Below are positions 5,658-49,411 of a stretch of DNA of 64,000 nt, one piece after another. The notes beneath the pieces are model-generated. The model was given only the letters and a program-made list of their open reading frames with translations. It was not told the DNA's origin and did no database searches. The stretch lies in contig NZ_CP026923.1 in assembly GCF_002950575.1 (NCBI RefSeq), positions 558,001 through 622,000 on the forward strand. Direction: 5' to 3'. The DNA is from Pontimonas salivibrio. Lineage in GTDB: Bacteria; Actinomycetota; Actinomycetes; Actinomycetales; Microbacteriaceae. Position numbers and translations under genes: made by a program. Each line of letters begins with the position of its first letter. Positions within the stretch are counted from its first letter, which is position 1.

Positions 5658-6563
5658 ATGACCCTGGGGGCTGCCATTCGTGCTTACCTGGATGCGAGAG
5701 CAGACAGTGCTGAGCTCTCCGAGCATTCCCTGCGCGGCTACCAGCAAGACTTAGAGTCGCTCGTGGACTACGCCGAGGCTGCCGGGGTCGAGAGTATGTC
5801 CGGTGTGGACGCCGAATTGTGTCGCTCGTGGTTGTGGGACCAAGCAAGCGCTGGCCTCGCTCCCAGGACATTGCGCAGAAGGGTTTCCAGCCTTCGAGGG
5901 TGGTCCACATGGGCACACCGCCAAGGACTTCTCGCCGTTGATATCGGCGCAGGAATCCACCAACCGAGCGCACCCAAACGCTTACCCCGTGTCCTGACCG
6001 AACACCAACTGTCAGAGATTTTCGACGTGCTCGAGCAGCGCGCTGCCACCGGCGACCCGGTGGGCCTTCGTGACCGCGCCATCGTCGAGTTGCTCTACTC
6101 CTCCGCACTTCGTGTGGGCGAGCTGTGCGGTCTCGAAATGGACGCCGTCGATTTCACCGAGCGCACCCTGCGCGTGGTGGGCAAGGGAAACCGTGAACGG
6201 GTCGTGCCGATGGGTGGCCCCGCCCACACAGCGCTGACTGAATACTTCGAAGCGGGCCGAGAGGCGCTGTTGGCGGGAAAAACCTCGAAGAAAATCTTCC
6301 TGAACTCACGCGGTGGGCCGTTAGGCCCACGCACGGTCTACCAACTGATCGCCGCGTTGTTGGAGCCCTACCCGGGTAATGGCCCGAGTGGCCCCCACAC
6401 CCTGCGTCATTCTGCCGCCACCCACCTGCTCGATCACGGTGCCGATTTGCGAAGCGTTCAAGAATATTTAGGCCACCAATCTTTGGCCACCACCGAGCTG
6501 TACACCCACGTGTCTATCGAGCGACTGCGCAGCGCTTTTGACCAAGCTCACCCTCGGGCGTAA
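5658..6563 (+). CDS. xerC: Tyrosine recombinase XerC/XerD
   Basis: A 301-residue site-specific recombinase that resolves chromosome dimers at dif. The catalytic set is complete: R152 (SALRVGEL), K176 (VVGKGNRE), H247 and R250 (HTLRHSAATHLL), H273 (LGHQSLATTE) and nucleophile Y282 (LYTHV). The N-terminal SAM-like DNA-binding domain spans about 1-105. The frame is open far upstream, but ATG 5658 gives the normal length and a natural N-terminus (LGAAIRAYLD). The dprA-xerC-M23-rpsB context is that of XerC. The 3' end overlaps the convergent M23 gene by 16 nt. Confidence 0.93.
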   Translation: MTLGAAIRAYLDARADSAELSEHSLRGYQQDLESLVDYAEAAGVESMSGVDAELCRSWLWDQASAGLAPRTLRRRVSSLRGWSTWAHRQGLLAVDIGAGIHQPSAPKRLPRVLTEHQLSEIFDVLEQRAATGDPVGLRDRAIVELLYSSALRVGELCGLEMDAVDFTERTLRVVGKGNRERVVPMGGPAHTALTEYFEAGREALLAGKTSKKIFLNSRGGPLGPRTVYQLIAALLEPYPGNGPSGPHTLRHSAATHLLDHGADLRSVQEYLGHQSLATTELYTHVSIERLRSAFDQAHPRA

Positions 6564-7117
6564 CCCGCACGGTGTGACAGGCGGTGTGACAGGCGGTGGG
6601 TAGTGCCGCTGGCCAGACCACCCTTCGGGTAATTCCCGTCGGCGGTGTAGCCACTGTTGGTGAACGGCAGAAGCCTCGCTCGGCGAAGTATCCCCAGCTC
6701 GCGTGCCGGTGAGCGGTATTCGCCCTCCACACGCAAGCCAATGTGAAGACAGCCTCCCGGGCAGTGGCCCGGTGCGACACGTCCAATGCGTTGGCCCGCT
6801 CGCACGCGAGAGCCCACCTCGCCATCCACTCGCACGGGTTCCATGCTGACCAGCCAACCTGAGGCCGTCCGGATGGTCACCACTGCGCGGTTGACGACGT
6901 CACCGGTGAAGTGAATACGGCCTGACACGGGTGCGACCACCACGGTTCCTACCGAGGCGCGAAGGTCCAGGCCGCGGTGGCCTGGACCCCACTCACTTTC
7001 CGGGGCGTCAAAATCCCGCACGACTTCCTTTTCGGTGGCGACCGGCCAAGTCCACACGGCAGGCGGAGGCGCCACCAGGCTGGCGATTAGTACAGCAGTG
7101 AGCAGTGGACGGATCAT
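6548..7117 (-). CDS. Exported M23-family peptidase (peptidoglycan endopeptidase-like)
   Basis: About 189 residues. The start at ATG 7117-7115 gives a clean signal peptide (MIRPLLTAVLIASLVAPPPA), so the protein acts outside the membrane. The lysostaphin-like fold shows the zinc block GHRGLDLR (His and Asp) and the second block CLHIGLRV, where the first His of the usual HxH is Cys. Related Microbacteriaceae proteins at this locus have the same ACLH pattern, so this need not mean loss of activity. The C-terminal tail RLSHRLSHRAG comes from a 12-bp tandem duplication (6571-6594) and the last 16 nt overlap xerC. It probably trims peptidoglycan cross-links. Confidence 0.85.
   Translation of the reverse strand: MIRPLLTAVLIASLVAPPPAVWTWPVATEKEVVRDFDAPESEWGPGHRGLDLRASVGTVVVAPVSGRIHFTGDVVNRAVVTIRTASGWLVSMEPVRVDGEVGSRVRAGQRIGRVAPGHCPGGCLHIGLRVEGEYRSPARELGILRRARLLPFTNSGYTADGNYPKGGLASGTTHRLSHRLSHRAGYARG
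6571..6594. repeat. Two tandem copies of a 12-bp unit
   Basis: GGTGTGACAGGC occurs twice in a row just after the xerC stop, inside the 3' end of the M23 gene on the other strand, where it encodes the duplicated RLSH tail. It looks like a recent slippage event. Confidence 0.85.
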
Positions 7118-7271
7118 CCCCGGATTATCAGGCCAGGGCATCGTGGTGCCCACGCAGGAGTCCATACCTGGTGATTGGCTCTTTGGTGGGCTCGCCTGTG
7201 GAGAGGCGTTGCCTGGCACGGAGCCGGCTGGCGAGCCTTGTGCGGCCTGGTGTCAGCCCGGTAAAACCCGC

Positions 7272-7277
7272 TATGCT
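7272..7277 (+). promoter_or_regulatory. Putative -10 element of the rpsB operon
   Basis: TATGCT in a T-poor context about 160 nt before the rpsB start; initiation about 7 nt downstream would give a leader of about 150 nt containing both hairpins. No convincing -35 hexamer stands at 16-18 bp. Confidence 0.5.
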
Positions 7278-7338
7278 CTACCCAGCAGCCGATTCGTCGG
7301 CTGACTTCGCGTGTCGATCACGAGATCTGACCCTCGGT

Positions 7339-7363
7339 CCTCGACAACATCATGTTGTCGAGG
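7339..7363 (+). promoter_or_regulatory. Perfect 12-bp inverted repeat in rpsB leader
   Basis: CCTCGACAACAT and its exact complement ATGTTGTCGAGG are separated by one base. No T run follows, so it is not a simple terminator. It could be an RNA hairpin for S2 feedback or a DNA operator. Confidence 0.6.
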
Positions 7364-7386
7364 GAAGGTTGGGCTCCGGCACCAGG

Positions 7387-7407
7387 GCGTGTTCCGCCGG
7401 AACACGC
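7387..7407 (+). promoter_or_regulatory. Second perfect hairpin in rpsB leader
   Basis: GCGTGTTCC and GGAACACGC (9 bp) flank a 3-nt loop (GCC), 30 nt before the rpsB start codon and about 16 nt before its ribosome-binding site. Confidence 0.6.
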
Positions 7408-7436
7408 ATAAACCGAGAACATGAAGGAGCACGGCC

Positions 7437-8489
7437 ATGGCCGTCATTACTATCCGCCAGCTACTCGATAGCGGCGTTCACTTTGGACACCAGACCAGGC
7501 GCTGGAATCCCAAAGTCAAGCGATTCATCCTCACTGAGCGCAGTGGCATTCACGTCATCGACCTGCAGCAGTCGCTCACCTATATCGACAAGGCCTATGA
7601 CTTTGTCAAAGACACTGTCGCCCACGGCGGAACCGTGTTGTTTGTGGGAACAAAAAAGCAGGCTCAGGAAGCCATTTCCGAGCAGGCTACCCGTGTCGGC
7701 CAGCCCTACGTGAACGAGCGTTGGTTGGGTGGTTTGCTCACCAACTTCCAAACCGTGTCAAAGCGTTTGGGTCGTATGAAAGAACTCGAAGAAGTCAACT
7801 ACGACGACACCACCCAGGGCTTCACCAAAAAAGAACTCCTGATGAAAAAGCGTGAACTCACCAAGCTTCACAAATCACTGGGTGGTATCCGCAACCTCCA
7901 GAAAACCCCCAGTGCGATGTGGGTGGTTGACCCCATTCGCGAGCACCTTGCGATTGACGAAGCCCGCAAGCTTGGAATTCCGGTAATCGGAATTCTCGAC
8001 ACCAACGCGGACCCCGACGACTTCGCCTACCCGATTCCCGGAAACGACGATGCCATTCGCTCGGTCGCACTGTTGACCAAAGTGATTGCCGACGCCGTGG
8101 CTGAGGGGCTCATCGAGCGCCACCAGAAGCCTGAACAAGAAGGCAACGTTTCCGCGGTTGAGCCGTTGGCCGAATGGGAGCGCGAGCTGCTAGAAGCCGG
8201 TCAGGAGTCGACCACAGAAGCTCCTGCTACTGACGCACCTGCTGCTGATGCTCCGGCCGCCGAAAAAGCGGAAACCGACGCCGCCGCCGTGGCAGAAAAG
8301 CCTGCTGCGAAAAAGCCCGCAGCAAAGAAACCTGCCGCGGAAAAGAAGCCTGCTGCGGAGAAAAAGCCGGCCGAAAAGAAACCTGCCGCGGAAAAGAAGC
8401 CTGCTGCGGAAAAGAAGCCTGCGGCTGAGAAGAAGCCTGCTGCTGCGAAAAAGCCTGCGGCAAAGAAGACCGAGACCGAGAAGAAGTAG
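7437..8489 (+). CDS. rpsB: 30S ribosomal protein S2 with long Lys/Ala/Pro tail
   Basis: The first 245 or so residues are a standard S2 ([18 protein letters not shown] at the start, [25 protein letters not shown]), a late-assembling 30S protein at the head-body neck. From about residue 262 the protein runs into a low-complexity tail of roughly 85 residues, first rich in A, D, E and P, then made of KKPAAE-type repeats ending in TETEKK. Usual S2 is 230-290 residues; this one has 350. The ATG at 7437 follows AAGGAG. It opens the rpsB-tsf-pyrH-frr-cdsA series; a structured leader precedes it. The tail may bind rRNA or help assembly, which is inference. Confidence 0.95.
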
Positions 8490-8500
8490 AGGAACCACGC

Positions 8501-9328
8501 ATGGCGAATGTCTCCCTAGAAGACGTCAAAAAGCTCCGGGAGCTCTTGGGCACCGGAATGGTTGACACGAAAAATGCCCTCGTCGAAGCCGGCGGGGATC
8601 TCGAAAAAGCGACCGAGCTTCTTCGCCTCAAAGGTGCGAAAGGTAACGCCAAGCGCGCAGACCGCTCCACCAGCGAAGGACTCGTCGCTGCCAAAGACTC
8701 GGGTGGCAACGCCTTCATGATTGAACTGGCATGCGAGACAGACTTCGTCGCAAAAAACGAGAAGTTCATTGCGTTGGCCGACAAGGTTCTGGACGCGGTC
8801 GTCGCGGCTGGAAGTGCCGATGTCGCCTCTGCCCTTGCCGCACCGCTCGAGGGTTCGACGGTGTCGGAAGCGATCGAAGGCGAAGCGGCAATCATCGGTG
8901 AAAAGGTTGAGCTGCGTCGCGTCGCACACCTTGAGGCCGAAAAGTTCGCCATCTACCTACACCGCACCAACAAAGACCTGCCCCCGCAGGTCGGCGTCGT
9001 GGTGGGCTATAGCGGAAGCGATGACGACACGGCCAGAGGAATTGCTCAACACATTTCCTTTGCGGACCCCCAGTACCTCACCCGCGACGAGGTCCCGGCC
9101 GACGCAGTGGAAAAAGAGCGTGCGCTGGTCGAAGAAATTAGCCGATCCGAGGGTAAGCCAGAAGCGGCTTTGCCCAAGATTGTTGAAGGGCGTCTCGGCG
9201 CTTTCTTCAAACAGGTTGCGCTGATGGATCAGGATTACGCCCGCGACAACAAACTGTCGATCGCGCAGGTTGTGGAGCAGGCCGGACTGAGTGTGAGCGG
9301 GTTCGCTCGCTTCCGGGTGGGTTCCTAA
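8501..9328 (+). CDS. tsf: Translation elongation factor Ts
   Basis: EF-Ts recharges EF-Tu by exchanging GDP for GTP. The 275 residues begin with the UBA-like domain ([19 protein letters not shown]), then the core motif [15 protein letters not shown] and the dimer-like core. It lies 11 nt after rpsB with AGGAACC upstream of ATG 8501, so the two are cotranscribed, as almost everywhere in bacteria. Length is normal for the group. Confidence 0.97.
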
Positions 9329-9392
9329 CCCACCAACAAGACCGCGAGGCGCTAACCTTCTAGGCGACACCTCGATGACGCAAGGAGGAGCG

Positions 9393-10097
9393 ATGGCGAA
9401 CCGCAGACGCGTCTTGCTCAAACTCTCCGGCGAATCCTTTGGTGGCGGAGCACTCGGAGTAAACCCCGACGTGGTCGCCCAAATCGCCAGAGAGATTGCG
9501 GAAGCAGCGACAGAAGTAGAAATCGCTGTCGTCGTGGGTGGTGGAAACTTTTTCCGCGGAGCTGAACTCAGTCAACGCGGCATGGATCGTCGTCGCGCTG
9601 ACTACATGGGCATGTTGGGCACCGTGATGAACGCTCTGGCGCTCCAAGACTTTTTGGAGCAAGCCGGAGCTCAGGTGCGCGTGCAGTCAGCGATTTCGAT
9701 GACCCAGGTCGCTGAGCCCTACATCCCCCTGCGCGCTGTGCGCCACCTGGAAAAAGGTCGTGTTGTGGTCTTCGGTGCCGGCGCCGGGTTGCCGTATTTT
9801 TCCACCGATACCGTGGCTGCCCAACGTGCACTCGAGATTCTTGCCGACGAAGTCCTCGTCGCCAAAAACGGTGTCGATGGTGTCTATTCTTCTGACCCAA
9901 AAACAAACCCCGATGCCCAAAAATTCGACCGGTTGAGCTACCAGGAAGCCCTGGTCAAAGGACTCAAAGTGGTCGACTCCACGGCCTTTAGTTTGTGCAT
10001 GGACAACAACATGCCCATGCTGGTCTTTGGGATGGAACCGGCAGGCAACGTCACCCGCGCCCTATTAGGTGAGCGCATCGGAACCCTGGTGTCCTAG
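9393..10097 (+). CDS. pyrH: Uridylate kinase (UMP kinase)
   Basis: Hexameric bacterial UMP kinase that makes UDP for RNA, DNA and sugar-nucleotide synthesis. Hallmarks: [10 protein letters not shown] (phosphate loop), [29 protein letters not shown], and GTGNPYFSTD-like [11 protein letters not shown]. An in-frame ATG exists at 9375, but the strong AGGAGG at 9382-9387 lies between it and ATG 9393, so the latter is the start (234 residues). A -10-like TAACCT at 9353-9358 may give an internal promoter. Confidence 0.95.
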
Positions 10098-10151
10098 CAC
10101 TGGCCACAAAGCAACGCTCGTTACACTCAAAGTCAACACCGGGAGGCTGGA

Positions 10152-10706
10152 ATGATCGAAGACGTACTAACCGAAGCTGGCGAAAAAATGGGCAAGGCAG
10201 TCGACGCCGTCCACAACGATTTTCAGAATGTCCGCACCGGTCGAGCCAACCCGTCGCTCTTTCAAAAAATCATGGTCGAGTATTACGGCACACCGACCCC
10301 GTTGGATCAGCTTGCAGGCCTGCAGGTCCAAGAAGCCCGCACGATGGTTATCACCCCCTATGACAAGTCGGCGGCCAAAGACATCGAAAAAGCAATCGTT
10401 GCGGCGCAACATTTAGGGGCAACACCCCAAAATGACGGGGAAGTCATCCGTGTCACCATGCCGGAGCTCAACGAAGAACGCCGGAAAGAGTACGTGAAGC
10501 TCGCCCATCAGAAGGCTGAAGACGGGCGTGTTTCTGTGCGCAGTGTGCGTCGTAAAGCAAAGGATGACCTTGAGGCCCTCACCTCGGAGGTCGGCGAGGA
10601 CGACGTCTTCCGCGGAGAAAAAGAACTTGAGGCAATGACCAAGGCCCACATCGATCGAATCGATGAGGCGCTGAAGAGAAAAGAAGAAGAACTCCTCGAA
10701 GTGTGA
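10152..10706 (+). CDS. frr: Ribosome recycling factor
   Basis: RRF splits post-termination ribosomes together with EF-G. The 184-residue, mostly helical protein has the family blocks [24 protein letters not shown] and the C-terminal [21 protein letters not shown] at 10141-10146 precedes ATG 10152. A TACACT hexamer about 30 nt upstream could add a promoter between pyrH and frr. cdsA follows after 6 nt. Confidence 0.97.
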
Positions 10707-10712
10707 CCTGCG

Positions 10713-11669
10713 GTGACTACAGAATCCCGCCAAGACGACTTACCCCCAGAAAAACCGGGGGAGCGTAGCCCACTCGACAACGTGTTGGGTGGCGTTGAGG
10801 CTCAATATCACGAGTGGGAACACCAGGTTCGCGAAGCCAACGAACGAATTGATCAAGCGGCCGGGCGCCCGCTGTGGCAAGCCATTGCGGTTGGCCTGGC
10901 ACTTGGTGGGGTTTTTCTCGTTGCGTTACTGGTCTCGCCGCTTTTGTTTGGTCTTTTCGCCGGCACACTCCTTGTGTTTGCTGTCGTGGAATTGGTCGGG
11001 GCAATGCGACTGGGTGGGGCCAGGCTGTCGCGAACCCTGCTGTCGCTGGTCTCACTGGGCATCCTCGCCGGCGCCTACTTTTACGGTGGTGACGGCCTCT
11101 TCACCACACTGTTTGCCGGCATTATTTTGATTGCTTCGGGCCGTACTGCGCTCATGGTTCAACCCCGCGCAAGGACCGGTGTGGCGCGGGATATTCAGCA
11201 GGGTTGGTTTGTGCTGATGTATTTGCCCTTCATGGGTTCCGCCGCGGTGGCCCTCAGGCTCTCGGATGGCGGTGCCTGGTGGATTTTCGCAATCATCATC
11301 ATCGTGGTGAGTGTTGATACGTCCGCCTACGCCGTGGGGCGAAGTCTGGGACGCCACAAGCTCGCCCCCACAATCAGCCCCGGAAAAACCTGGGAGGGCT
11401 TCGCCGGCGCCAGCGTGGCAGGAGCCATCGCTGGAGTGGCGACCGGTACGTGGATGATTGATGTGGGCCCGTGGTGGGGTCTAATGATTGGTGGGATTGT
11501 CGTCGTGACCGCGACACTGGGTGACCTGTTGGAGTCGTTCATCAAACGTGAGGTGGGAGTGAAGGACATGTCGAGTGTTCTTCCGGGACACGGTGGGGTG
11601 CTTGACCGTTTGGATTCGGTCTTGCCCTCCCTCGCGATCGGCTATCTGCTTTACCAATTCCTGGGCTAG
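10713..11669 (+). CDS. cdsA: Phosphatidate cytidylyltransferase (CDP-diacylglycerol synthase)
   Basis: This integral membrane enzyme makes CDP-diacylglycerol, the branch point for phospholipids. The 318 residues start with a soluble acidic stretch of about 55 residues, then about eight membrane segments. The CDS signature is intact: SPGKTWEG and the C-terminal KRE-VGVKDMS---PGHGG-LDRLD block with its acidic and His metal ligands. Start is GTG 10713, 6 nt after frr. The pyrH-frr-cdsA order is common to most bacteria. Confidence 0.94.
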   Translation: MTTESRQDDLPPEKPGERSPLDNVLGGVEAQYHEWEHQVREANERIDQAAGRPLWQAIAVGLALGGVFLVALLVSPLLFGLFAGTLLVFAVVELVGAMRLGGARLSRTLLSLVSLGILAGAYFYGGDGLFTTLFAGIILIASGRTALMVQPRARTGVARDIQQGWFVLMYLPFMGSAAVALRLSDGGAWWIFAIIIIVVSVDTSAYAVGRSLGRHKLAPTISPGKTWEGFAGASVAGAIAGVATGTWMIDVGPWWGLMIGGIVVVTATLGDLLESFIKREVGVKDMSSVLPGHGGVLDRLDSVLPSLAIGYLLYQFLG

Positions 11670-44704: not shown

Positions 44705-46951
44705 ATGGAAGGTGACGACATTACGTTTGCCGAGGCTGTTTTAGATAACGGTTCGTTTGGTAAGCGCACGATTCGCTTTGAGACTGGGCGCCTCGCCCAG
44801 CAAGCCCAAGGAGCCGTCGCGGCATACCTGGATGAAGAAACCATGTTGCTCTCGGCAACTAGCGCGGGAAAGCACCCTCGTGAAGGGTTCGACTTTTTCC
44901 CACTGACCGTTGACGTCGAAGAGCGTCAATACGCTGCCGGCAAGATCCCCGGATCGTTCTTCCGCCGTGAGGGTCGCCCCTCCACGGAAGCCATTTTGGT
45001 CTGCCGTTTGATCGACCGGCCACTGCGTCCCTCGTTTGCCACGGGCCTTCGAAACGAAGTGCAGATTGTCATCACCGTGCTCTCGATTGCACCCGGTGAG
45101 TTCTACGACGCTCTCGCAATTAACGCGGCAAGTGCATCGACCCAGATTTCCGGTTTGCCCTTTAGCGGTCCCATTGGCGCAGTGCGTATTGCGCTGATTG
45201 GTTCGCAGTGGGTCGCGTTCCCCACTCACGCCCAGCTCGACGAAGCGGTCTTCGACATGATGGTCGCCGGTCGTGTAGTGAAACAAGACGATGGCACCGA
45301 CGACGTCGCAATCATGATGGTCGAAGCGGAAGCCACTGAAGGTAGCTGGAACCTCATCCAGGCTGGTGCAACCAAGCCCGATGAGGACGTCGTTGCTGGT
45401 GGTTTGGAAGCGGCGAAACCCTTCTTGCGTCAACTCATTGAGGCCCAGGCCGCAATGGCCAAAGACTCCGCCAAAGAAGTCCAGGACTACCCCCGCTTTG
45501 CGGACTACACCGATGAGGTCTACAAGGCCGTTCAGGACTTGGCGGCAACCGATTTGGCTGCGGTCTACCAAATCGCCGACAAGCAGGAGCGTCAGGCCAA
45601 AGACGATGAGCTGAAAACTCAGGTTAAAGCCACAATCGCCCAAAAGGTGGAGGCCGGAGAGCTTCCTGAGGAAGCCAACGCCATGGTGGGTGCTGCGTAC
45701 AAGTCCGTCACCAAATCGGTGATGCGCCGCCGCGTGCTCACCGAAGGTATCCGTATGGACGGTCGCACCCCGGAGCAGATTCGTGGGCTAGACGCCGAAG
45801 TGGAAGTTATTCCCCGAGTACACGGTTCCGCACTGTTCCAACGAGGTGACACTCAGATCCTGGGTGTGACCACGCTGAACATGTTGAAGTTGGAGCAGCA
45901 ACTTGATTCGTTGAGCCCTGTGACGAGCAAGCGTTACATGCACCACTACAACTTCCCGCCCTACTCGACAGGTGAAACCGGTCGTGTGGGTTCGCCGAAG
46001 CGTCGAGAAATCGGTCACGGTTTCTTGGCCGAGCGGGCACTTGTTCCGGTTCTTCCGACCCGTGAAGAGTTCCCCTACGCCATTCGTCAGGTATCCGAGG
46101 CCCTTGGCTCCAACGGTTCTACTTCAATGGGTTCGGTGTGCGCATCGACCCTGTCGATGCTGGACGCCGGTGTGCCACTGCGTGCCCCGGTTGCGGGTAT
46201 TGCGATGGGTCTGATCAGCGAAGAGGTTGACGGAAAGATGCACTACAGCGCATTGACCGACATCCTCGGCGCCGAAGACGCCCTGGGCGACATGGACTTC
46301 AAGGTCGCCGGCACGAAGGACTTCATCACCGCAATCCAGTTGGACACCAAACTCGATGGTCTTCCCGCGAGTGTCCTGTCGGGCGCGTTGGGTCAAGCCA
46401 AAGAGGCTCGACTCAGCATTCTTGACGTGATGAATCAGGCCATTAGTGAGCCCGATGAGATGGCACCTACCGCGCCGCGCGTGATCAGTGTGCAAATCCC
46501 TGAGGACAAGATCGGTGAACTCATCGGACCGAAGGGTAAAACCATTAACGCCATCCAAGACGAGACTGGTGCTCAGATCTCGATTGAGGATGACGGCACG
46601 GTGTACATCGGTGCGACCGACCAGGCGATTGCCGACGAAGCCCGTTCACGGGTGAACGCGATCGCTAACCCGGTCACGCCGGAAATCGGTGAACAGTACC
46701 TCGGTACTGTCGTCAAGCTGGCCACCTTCGGCGCATTCGTGTCGCTGATGCCCGGTAAAGATGGCCTCTTGCACATCTCAGAGGTGCGCAAGCTCGCCGG
46801 TGGTAAGCGCGTGGAGGACATTGAAGAAGTGCTCTCCGTGGGCCAAAAAGTCCAGGTGGAAATCACCAAGATTGATGACCGTGGCAAGCTTTCGCTGAGC
46901 CCCGTGTTGGATCAGGGTGCTCCATCAGGAGATGACGGCGAAGACGGCTAA
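44705..46951 (+). CDS. pnp: Polyribonucleotide nucleotidyltransferase (PNPase)
   Basis: 748-residue phosphorolytic 3'-5' exoribonuclease. Two RNase PH domains (about 30-160 and 345-560) with [36 protein letters not shown]-like block and [17 protein letters not shown], then a KH domain ([17 protein letters not shown]) and an S1 domain ([25 protein letters not shown]). AAGGAG stands 8 nt before ATG 44705. A strong terminator follows. The next gene is the rhodopsin instead of the usual M16 peptidase. Confidence 0.97.
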
Positions 46952-46968
46952 GAGAACCAATCAGTTCA

Positions 46969-46994
46969 AAGGGGCGGAAATTTCCGCCCCTTTG
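46969..46994 (+). terminator. Rho-independent terminator of pnp
   Basis: A perfect 26-bp palindrome (13-bp arms starting AAAGGGGCGG) ends in TTT and is followed by GCTGTTTCTT. As it is symmetrical it may work in both directions. Confidence 0.85.
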
Positions 46995-47242
46995 CTGTTT
47001 CTTGACCCTTATCCACATCGCTTTTGTCGATTACCTACAAAAGGTTCCCAGTTTCTTTTCAGGTGAATTTGGGGTTTCACCTAGACATTGGTTCACGCCA
47101 TCGCGGTAGCCTGTGGGGCGCTAGTCGTGGAGGGCAGTTTGACTCCGTCGATTAGTGCGGGGGACCACCCCCACCACCCGCCGACATTCCGTCGTGGCGG
47201 CGGGCGGACAAGTAAAAACCCAAAACCTTTCGAGGGAGAACA
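46995..47242 (+). other. Upstream region of the rhodopsin gene
   Basis: About 248 nt. Visible: an inverted repeat AGGTGAA (47061-47067) and TTCACCT (47076-47082), a weak -10-like TAGCCT (47107-47112), a C-rich run, a CCCGCCG (47177-47183)/CGGCGGG (47198-47204) stem and the ribosome-binding site GAGGGAG (47232-47238). No clear -35/-10 pair and no small gene. Confidence 0.55.
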
Positions 47243-47947
47243 ATGGATCTGCTCGCTATTACGCAGGCATTCTTCATGCTCGGATTTGTGGCCATGGCCG
47301 CGGGAACGCTGTACTTCGTTCTCGAGCGCAATGACATCAAGCCCGAACACCGCATGACTGCAACCTATGCCGGCATCATCACCTTCATCGCCGCGATTAT
47401 GTACTGGATCATGACCGACTTCGTCGGCTTCTTTGACCAGGCCACAACCGCTGATGTTGGTGCAACGATGCCCTACCGTTACATTGACTGGCTGCTCACC
47501 ACCCCGCTTCTGCTGGTGGAATTTGGTCTCATTGTTGCCATCGCTGGTGGCGCGACCAAGAGCTTCATGACCAAGATCATCGTGGCGGACATCATCATGA
47601 TCGTCACCGGTTACCTCGGTGAAGTTGGAGAACCAGGTTCAGCGAACAACTGGATCTTCTTCATCATTTCCAGCCTCGCGTGGTTCTACATCGTGTACGC
47701 GGTGTACCAGGTGAAGCTCGACGGAATGCCCGACTACGCAGCACGCGCCGTACGCATCATGCGTCGCTTCGTGCTCTTCGGTTGGACGATCTACCCCGTC
47801 GGTGTTGCTGTTGAGGAATTCCTCACCCTTGGTGGAGCGGATGTCGGCCTCGCCGTCAGCCTCGCCGCAATCATCTTCGTCATTGCCGACGTGTTGAACA
47901 AGGTGGGCTTCGGAATGGTCGCGGTTGCCGCTGCCAAGAAGGCCTAA
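47243..47947 (+). CDS. Proteorhodopsin-type light-driven proton pump
   Basis: 234 residues, seven helices (about 6-26, 42-60, 78-101, 109-124, 135-157, 172-195, 203-230). Helix C RYIDWLLTTPLLLVEF gives R79, proton acceptor D82, T86 and donor E93: the DTE set of outward proton pumps. L90 at the tuning position predicts green absorption. K220 in ADVLNKVGFG binds retinal, with D216 as second counter-ion. The helix-B His that partners the acceptor in proteorhodopsin appears to be M53. Helix E reads FIISSLAWFYI, like proteorhodopsin, with bulky residues where actinorhodopsin/xanthorhodopsin have the antenna Gly, so no carotenoid antenna is expected. No retinal genes are in the window. Confidence 0.93.
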   Translation: MDLLAITQAFFMLGFVAMAAGTLYFVLERNDIKPEHRMTATYAGIITFIAAIMYWIMTDFVGFFDQATTADVGATMPYRYIDWLLTTPLLLVEFGLIVAIAGGATKSFMTKIIVADIIMIVTGYLGEVGEPGSANNWIFFIISSLAWFYIVYAVYQVKLDGMPDYAARAVRIMRRFVLFGWTIYPVGVAVEEFLTLGGADVGLAVSLAAIIFVIADVLNKVGFGMVAVAAAKKA

Positions 47948-47964
47948 GCACCCGTAATAGCCTG

Positions 47965-47993
47965 TGGGCCGGAGCGAGAGCTCCGGCCCATTT
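47965..47993 (+). terminator. Terminator of the rhodopsin gene
   Basis: TGGGCCGGAGC and GCTCCGGCCCA (11 bp, perfect) flank a GAGA loop and are followed by TTT. Together with the pnp terminator it makes the rhodopsin a closed single-gene unit. Confidence 0.85.
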
Positions 47994-48058: not shown

Positions 48059-49411
48059 GTGTCTGAAGCTATTGATCTTCCCCTTGACGTTCCAGAAATC
48101 GCGAGCACCATTTCTCAGGGGGCACACTTTCGTCGCACCGTGCACCCTTCAGGGCTACGCATCCTCACCGAATGGGTACCGGGCGCTGCAAGCACCTCGG
48201 TGGGCTTCTGGGTGCCCGTCGGGAGCCGTGATGAAGACGCTGTGGCATACGGCTCCACCCACTTCCTCGAACACCTCCTGTTCAAAGGCACGCCCCGTCG
48301 CACGGCGATGGATATTGCGGTGGCCTTTGACCGCGTCGGTGGTGAACACAACGCGCTGACGGCAAAAGAGCACACCTGCTACTACGCCAAAGTGCAAGAC
48401 CGCGATGTGGACATGGCCATTGATGTTCTGGCCGACATGGTCTCCTCATCATTGATTGACGTGGACGAATTCGACGTTGAGCGTCGGGTCATCCTCGAAG
48501 AGCTCGCCATGGCCGATGACGACGCTGCGGATGTTGCCCACGAGCGGATTGCCGAAGCGGTGATGGGTGACCACCCGCTGGGGCGCCCGATCGGCGGTTC
48601 GCCGGAAAGCATCGAAGCCGCATCCAGGGATCAAGTCGTCGCCCACTACGAGCGCTACTACCGCCCCGATCACCTTGTGGTGACCCTGGCAGGCGCCGTC
48701 GACCACAACCACGCCGTACGGACACTGTTAGAGGCCCTAGAGCGCTACGGCTGGCCACTCGACCAGCAGGCACCTCCCGTGCCAAGGCGCACGACGGTGG
48801 CACCGACCCTCCCACAAGAACCCACTAAGAAGCTCATCCATCGACCGTTGGAACAATCCACGGTGGTGTTGGCCACACCAGGGCTCACCCAGACAGATGA
48901 ACGACGCTCCACCGCGGCCGTGCTGACCACCGTGCTGGGTGGTGGGATGTCGTCGAGGCTATTTCAAGAGATTCGCGAGAAGCGCGGCCTGGCCTACAGC
49001 GTCTACGCCTACTCAGGCCACTACTCCGATGCGGGGCTGTTTGGGATGGCCGCTGGTACCGGACCTGAATACGTCGACACTGTCGTTCGCGTGATGCAGG
49101 ACATTTTCCGAGAGATCGTTGCAGAGGGAATCACCGAGGAAGAACTCGAGCGCACACTCGGCAACCTCCAGGGTGCGAGCTCCCTGGCGCTGGAGAGCAC
49201 AGACACCCGGATGGTGCGCTTGGGCCGATCCGAGATTCACACGGGTGAATTTGTCGACCGAGATGAAGCCTTGAGGCGACTCGACTTGGTGACCCTGGAT
49301 TCTGTGAGGGACTTGGCAGCGAGTGTTGCCGGAGGGCCACTCAGCGCGGTCGCGGTGGGAGCGATCAGCGACACGGCCCTCGACAGCGTGGGGTCACTCG
49401 TAGCAGACTAG
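48059..49411 (+). CDS. M16-family zinc peptidase (processing-peptidase-like)
   Basis: 450 residues, two homologous halves. The inverted zinc site is H68-F-L-E71-H72 (THFLEHLLFKG) with the distal Glu in the downstream ELAMADDDAADVAHE region; the substrate-binding GGGMSSRLFQEIREKRGLAY block marks the second half. Similar to mitochondrial processing peptidase beta and actinobacterial PqqL-like proteins that follow pnp. It probably degrades small peptides. In most relatives dapB comes next; here a phosphatase gene does. Confidence 0.92.
   Translation: MSEAIDLPLDVPEIASTISQGAHFRRTVHPSGLRILTEWVPGAASTSVGFWVPVGSRDEDAVAYGSTHFLEHLLFKGTPRRTAMDIAVAFDRVGGEHNALTAKEHTCYYAKVQDRDVDMAIDVLADMVSSSLIDVDEFDVERRVILEELAMADDDAADVAHERIAEAVMGDHPLGRPIGGSPESIEAASRDQVVAHYERYYRPDHLVVTLAGAVDHNHAVRTLLEALERYGWPLDQQAPPVPRRTTVAPTLPQEPTKKLIHRPLEQSTVVLATPGLTQTDERRSTAAVLTTVLGGGMSSRLFQEIREKRGLAYSVYAYSGHYSDAGLFGMAAGTGPEYVDTVVRVMQDIFREIVAEGITEEELERTLGNLQGASSLALESTDTRMVRLGRSEIHTGEFVDRDEALRRLDLVTLDSVRDLAASVAGGPLSAVAVGAISDTALDSVGSLVAD

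Follow-up and report, generated by a model that had tools for sequence, protein, structure and literature searches.

In the coastal actinobacterium Pontimonas salivibrio, the rhodopsin gene located between pnp and the gene of an M16-family peptidase most probably forms a stand-alone transcription unit with a leader of its own and, judging from its sequence, would encode a retinal-based outward proton pump driven by green light and devoid of carotenoid antenna. The features surrounding this gene in the window, i.e. the whole stretch of 64,000 nucleotides under analysis, are compiled in Table 1. The product of 234 amino acids is scored at 152.8 bits by the Pfam profile Bac_rhodopsin (PF01036; cut-off 24.6), and the gene is the only one with this domain found here, matching the single bacteriorhodopsin described previously (PMC6106888). 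As C3B54_11643 of strain CL-TW6T (CP026923), it was classified within the green-absorbing Exiguobacterium subcluster rather than among the actinorhodopsins (Cho 2018, PMC6106888), and the protein, WP_104913209.1, was expressed in 2021, with absorption at 538 nm in DDM at pH 7; the ion-transport (pH) assay of that study covered only four proteins, red-shifted by at least 20 nm, the shift of WP_104913209.1 being 18 nm (PMC7979833). Gene, affiliation and colour have thus been published before, and the core finding of a preliminary description of this DNA was already known. What appears unreported is the loss of the counterion histidine throughout a clade of these rhodopsins, the presence of an actinorhodopsin in the same slot in genus g67 and a two-hairpin leader in Pontimonas, three points that are modest but testable; the aldo/keto reductase gene as an occupant of the slot in other genera is new here as well.

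Table 1. Features in and around the pnp-M16 slot of Pontimonas salivibrio, numbered along the window.
Feature	Positions	Strand	Basis
pnp (guanosine pentaphosphate synthetase/polynucleotide phosphorylase), upstream neighbour	44705..46951	+	
Intrinsic terminator of pnp with a perfect stem of 12 bp and a T-rich tail	46967..46994	+	terminator scan
Promoter-like pair conserved in Pontimonas (candidate only): CTAGACA-type element and TAGCCT -10-like hexamer (47107-47112)	47081..47112	+	alignment
Conserved leader element upstream of the ribosome-binding site: hairpin P1 (47159-47172) and GC-rich hairpin P2 (47174-47207)	47154..47212	+	
Ribosome-binding site GAGGGAGA, conserved in Pontimonas	47232..47239	+	sequence, alignment
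ESR/proteorhodopsin-type rhodopsin gene, 234 aa	47243..47947	+	Pfam, alignment, tree, fold
Perfect 10-bp inverted repeat 3' of the rhodopsin stop, weak T tail	47966..47989	+	sequence
M16-family peptidase, downstream neighbour	48059..49411	+	

Regarding the limits of the transcription unit, the preliminary description had a perfect terminator on either side of the gene, which holds after pnp but not after the rhodopsin gene, where the tail of the hairpin, ATTTGGCGTTTC, lacks a proper T-run and the scanner made no terminator call. The two hairpins of the leader are common to all Pontimonas rhodopsin leaders. P1 varies, with a single pair compensated from A-U to G-C, and P2, located shortly before the ribosome-binding site, is nearly invariant. 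With so little variation in P2, its covariation evidence is nil, so that a binding site for a protein would be an equally good reading. Compared with shuffled sequences, the leader of the window has the more stable fold (z -3.3), and a covariance model gives one clear match per genome in six Pontimonas genomes, the rhodopsin leader each time (E 1e-11 in the genome of the window), with no match in two further Pontimonas drafts, both of which have the rhodopsin gene at or near a contig end. No Rfam entry came near its gathering score in a search with the leader, and a scan for sigma-70 promoters detected none, and so did not call the candidate pair upstream of P1.

The predicted structure of the window rhodopsin (pLDDT 88.7) comprises seven long helices, with a further short one at residues 69-73, and its nearest match in the PDB, by sequence as well as by fold, is the rhodopsin of Exiguobacterium sibiricum, ESR (4hyj; TM 0.87). 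With its seven helices, a Schiff-base lysine in helix G and a D/T/E motif in helix C, the protein has the attributes of a type-1 microbial rhodopsin, namely D82 as proton acceptor, T86, L90 at the green position, E93 as proton donor and K220 as retinal lysine. These residues, reported at the outset for a 234-residue rhodopsin between pnp and the M16 peptidase gene and confirmed by the alignment, are kept in 34 out of 34 members of the clade to which the protein belongs, as is F140. The latter sits at the column of the antenna glycine of Gloeobacter rhodopsin (GR), and the alignment bears out the replacement of this glycine by Phe that had been pointed out; since Phe140 closes the fenestration, no carotenoid antenna is expected. 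Helix E reads FFIISSLAWFY and not the WG..STIPF of the actinorhodopsins, so that the dissimilarity to WGTLSTIPF first noticed there is real.

In a tree of 76 rhodopsins, the window protein falls within a clade of 34 Microbacteriaceae sequences (support 100/99), which makes up a larger clade together with ESR and its alphaproteobacterial and Comamonadaceae relatives (98/93). This ESR-type clade then joins the proteorhodopsins (100/99), the other half of the tree being composed of actinorhodopsins (ActR), xanthorhodopsin (XR) and GR; some long-branch joins were flagged by the program, and the separation from actinorhodopsin is independent of those joins. Identity amounts to 43% with ESR, 33% with green proteorhodopsin (GPR) and 25-26% with ActR and XR (25.7% with ActR). 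Both tree and identities place the protein on the proteorhodopsin/ESR side, in line with the initial proposal, and the grouping inside the actinorhodopsins that would have spoken against it was not seen.

Membership in the ESR subcluster is indicated by the position in the tree, by the best fold match and by the published MicRhoDE result, and D/T and L90 are shared with ESR. Two attributes of that subcluster are nonetheless absent: the lysine donor, Lys96 in ESR, is Glu93 in the window protein and Glu in the entire clade, and the histidine that pairs with the counterion (His57-Asp85 in ESR) gives way to Met in 29 and Leu in 5 of the 34 members, Met53 in the window protein aligning with His57 of ESR and His75 of GPR. 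The DTE motif, the leucine at the green position, the phenylalanine at the antenna position and the glutamate donor are all found in GPR (2l6x), which however keeps His75 and belongs to a separate clade (99/92). Actinorhodopsin (9hfk, Luna/g67-type) and XR likewise carry the DTE pump motif, and some actinorhodopsins occur in the same family, those of g67 even in the same slot, but these proteins retain the histidine and, in most cases, the antenna glycine. As for MAR/MacR (5jsi), a light-driven proton pump of marine actinobacteria, its identity with the window protein is 26% and its structural match ranks below that of ESR.

Within the Microbacteriaceae, the ESR type occurs in the genera g1 (Pontimonas), g74, g83, g46, g38 and g13, and in a phylum-wide sample of 397 genomes no ESR-type homologue was detected outside this family, the best match reaching 32% identity. 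A single clade of the ESR-type genera is rejected by pnp (AU test, p 0.011), which implies that the type was lost or transferred several times among the Microbacteriaceae. The ESR relatives of Alphaproteobacteria and Comamonadaceae (L019-L027) are also without counterion histidine, which is replaced by Asn, Met or Ile, and their donor residue is Lys, Val or Met; on some Polaromonas-type contigs, a second rhodopsin of GPR type lies about 0.5 kb downstream.

The rhodopsin gene is present in 17 of 19 Pontimonas genomes, including 6 of the 6 good ones, and occupies the pnp-M16 slot in every genome with usable flanks; the order pnp-rhodopsin-M16 is complete in 14 of them, and in another three the part visible, at a contig edge, is rhodopsin-M16. 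In the pnp tree, Pontimonas and g74 are sisters (96/97), and in g74 the rhodopsin gene is located downstream of pnp too, at 0.4-3.4 kb, M16 having been lost; in G236, an aldo/keto reductase gene (PF00248) and then a histidine-phosphatase gene follow. Two g74 genomes (among L061-L064) have ABC-transporter/TetR-like genes inserted between pnp and rhodopsin. As the slot is shared by Pontimonas and the rhodopsin gene lies beside pnp in g74, the arrangement predates the genus. Outside these genera, and with g67 set apart, a rhodopsin gene between pnp and M16 was found in none of 34 sampled genomes of other genera, and pnp-rhodopsin-M16 is accordingly not the ancestral order of the family that the synteny comparison proposed beforehand could have revealed. 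The usual adjacency of pnp and M16 assumed at that stage stands as far as the two genes lie on the same strand in the 34 sampled genomes, but the gap is below 250 bp in only 12 of these 34, and many of the others hold one intervening gene, often an aldo/keto reductase. The slot behind pnp is therefore variable, and its occupancy by rhodopsin is derived within the family, neither recent nor family-ancestral, the gene having entered before Pontimonas and g74 split. Syntenic orthologues are published for Yonghaparkia and acMicro-4, together with the conclusion that the gene was inherited from Microbacteriaceae ancestors (PMC6106888).

In genus g67, the same slot houses a rhodopsin of the other half of the tree. 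A rhodopsin gene is found in 7 of 15 g67 genomes; M16 follows it in all seven, and pnp immediately precedes it in the six whose contigs extend that far. Both the tree and the match to 9hfk (406 bits) identify it as a real actinorhodopsin. No rhodopsin gene is present in G067, a g67 genome of two contigs and 99% completeness, in which the slot amounts to a gap of 483 bp. The g67 arrangement was seen at L058 (G131, 6320-10908) and L078-L084, and the antenna position holds Leu in six of the seven genomes and Gly in G257 (L078). It is conceivable, if on balance rather unlikely, that rhodopsins replace each other at this site, the ESR type of Pontimonas and g74 and the actinorhodopsin of g67 then occupying a single ancestral rhodopsin locus through exchange in situ. 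That all seven g67 genes directly precede M16, six of them within a complete pnp-ActR-M16 order, fits such an exchange, as does the survival of a clade of g67, g1 and g74 in the AU test on pnp (p 0.33), and lineages that "exchanged" the gene are mentioned in the literature (PMC6106888). The pnp tree, however, leaves g67 unplaced, its grouping with the Luna-type genera g11, g14 and g81 surviving as well (p 0.22), the leaders preceding the Pontimonas-type and g67 rhodopsins are unrelated, and two independent insertions behind the pnp terminator fit the data equally well.

Coming back to the proton pump of Pontimonas, the position of His57 in ESR and His75 in GPR is occupied by histidine in ESR, GPR, XR, GR and every aligned actinorhodopsin, which sets apart the Met or Leu of the Microbacteriaceae clade. 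In the open literature searched, no report of a clade-wide substitution of this histidine by Met or Leu was found, which is not proof of absence, and nothing was found on an "H75M" proteorhodopsin or on rhodopsin gene replacement in these clades, most subscription papers lying outside the search. In ESR, the H57M mutation raises the pKa of the counterion to 6.3, with absorption at 565 nm at pH 5 and 517 nm at pH 8.5 (PMC10743670), and the K96E mutant still pumps, with an M decay about tenfold slower (PMC8387761). Combining Met53 with Glu93, the window rhodopsin resembles ESR H57M/K96E; in a clade devoid of the histidine that holds down the counterion pKa in ESR, the pKa of D82 would be expected to lie close to neutrality and the properties of the protein to match those of this double mutant. 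By analogy, it would be red-shifted and pump poorly at acid pH, and be green and pump at the pH of seawater. The 538 nm recorded at pH 7 may then mix two protonation states, and the reported red shift may be in part a protonation effect. The expected pKa shift is extrapolated from mutants of a protein sharing 43% identity, and other residues may compensate for the absent histidine.

From the conserved residues and the biochemistry of GPR and ESR, the photocycle would start with isomerisation by light of the retinal bound to K220, whereupon the Schiff-base proton would pass to D82 and a proton from the cytoplasm would reach the Schiff base through E93. Regarding the chromophore, a gene for a Blh-type beta-carotene dioxygenase is present at G000:C1:858631-859413 (L151), about 250 kb from the rhodopsin gene, hence retinal can be made in the cell and would presumably be supplied by its own Blh; the carotene/retinal genes are described as a later horizontal replacement (PMC6106888). 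Beside the Blh gene, short reverse-strand reading frames resemble lycopene-cyclase genes, by eye only. A search for heliorhodopsin gave no match, all controls likewise remaining without match.

Instead of pumping for energy, the protein might act as a light sensor coupled to a transducer. A role of this kind has been suggested for the Exiguobacterium protein, described as a poor pump and as a sensor (PMC6106888), and the absent counterion histidine could slow or weaken pumping; such a sensory role is nevertheless very unlikely, considering that all 34 members keep the donor Glu and the acceptor Asp, that the gene stands as a unit of its own in a slot devoid of any transducer gene, and that neither a signal transduction system nor motility genes were found in the genome study (PMC6106888). 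Weaker still, and barely credible, is the idea put forward first, namely that this streamlined strain recently took up a proteorhodopsin cassette by horizontal transfer: the order is missing from the 34 sampled genomes of other genera and the ESR type has moved or been lost several times in the family, but the slot is the same in all checkable Pontimonas, the gene adjoins pnp in g74, its close protein relatives are found only in Microbacteriaceae-type genomes and its codon usage and GC3 (0.736) are native. Composition was also considered by itself as a sign of recent transfer, which was rejected on these native values. The initial observation is confirmed and its interpretation partly supported. 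The proton pump gene most probably came to lie next to pnp no later than in the last ancestor shared by Pontimonas and g74, and has been inherited vertically in Pontimonas since; an older transfer into that ancestor is possible.

Beyond the single gene, the whole actinobacterial clade may represent a natural counterpart of ESR H57M/K96E, with a counterion titrating near neutral pH, so that the pump would turn off and red at acid pH, a structured leader RNA in Pontimonas and a slot visited by two unrelated rhodopsin branches, a tentative picture whose chances are somewhat below even. That unrelated rhodopsins turn up repeatedly in this slot is relevant to the question of how readily pumps are swapped among photoheterotrophic actinobacteria, and a clade-wide loss of the histidine would make the role of the counterion histidine testable in natural pumps rather than in mutants.
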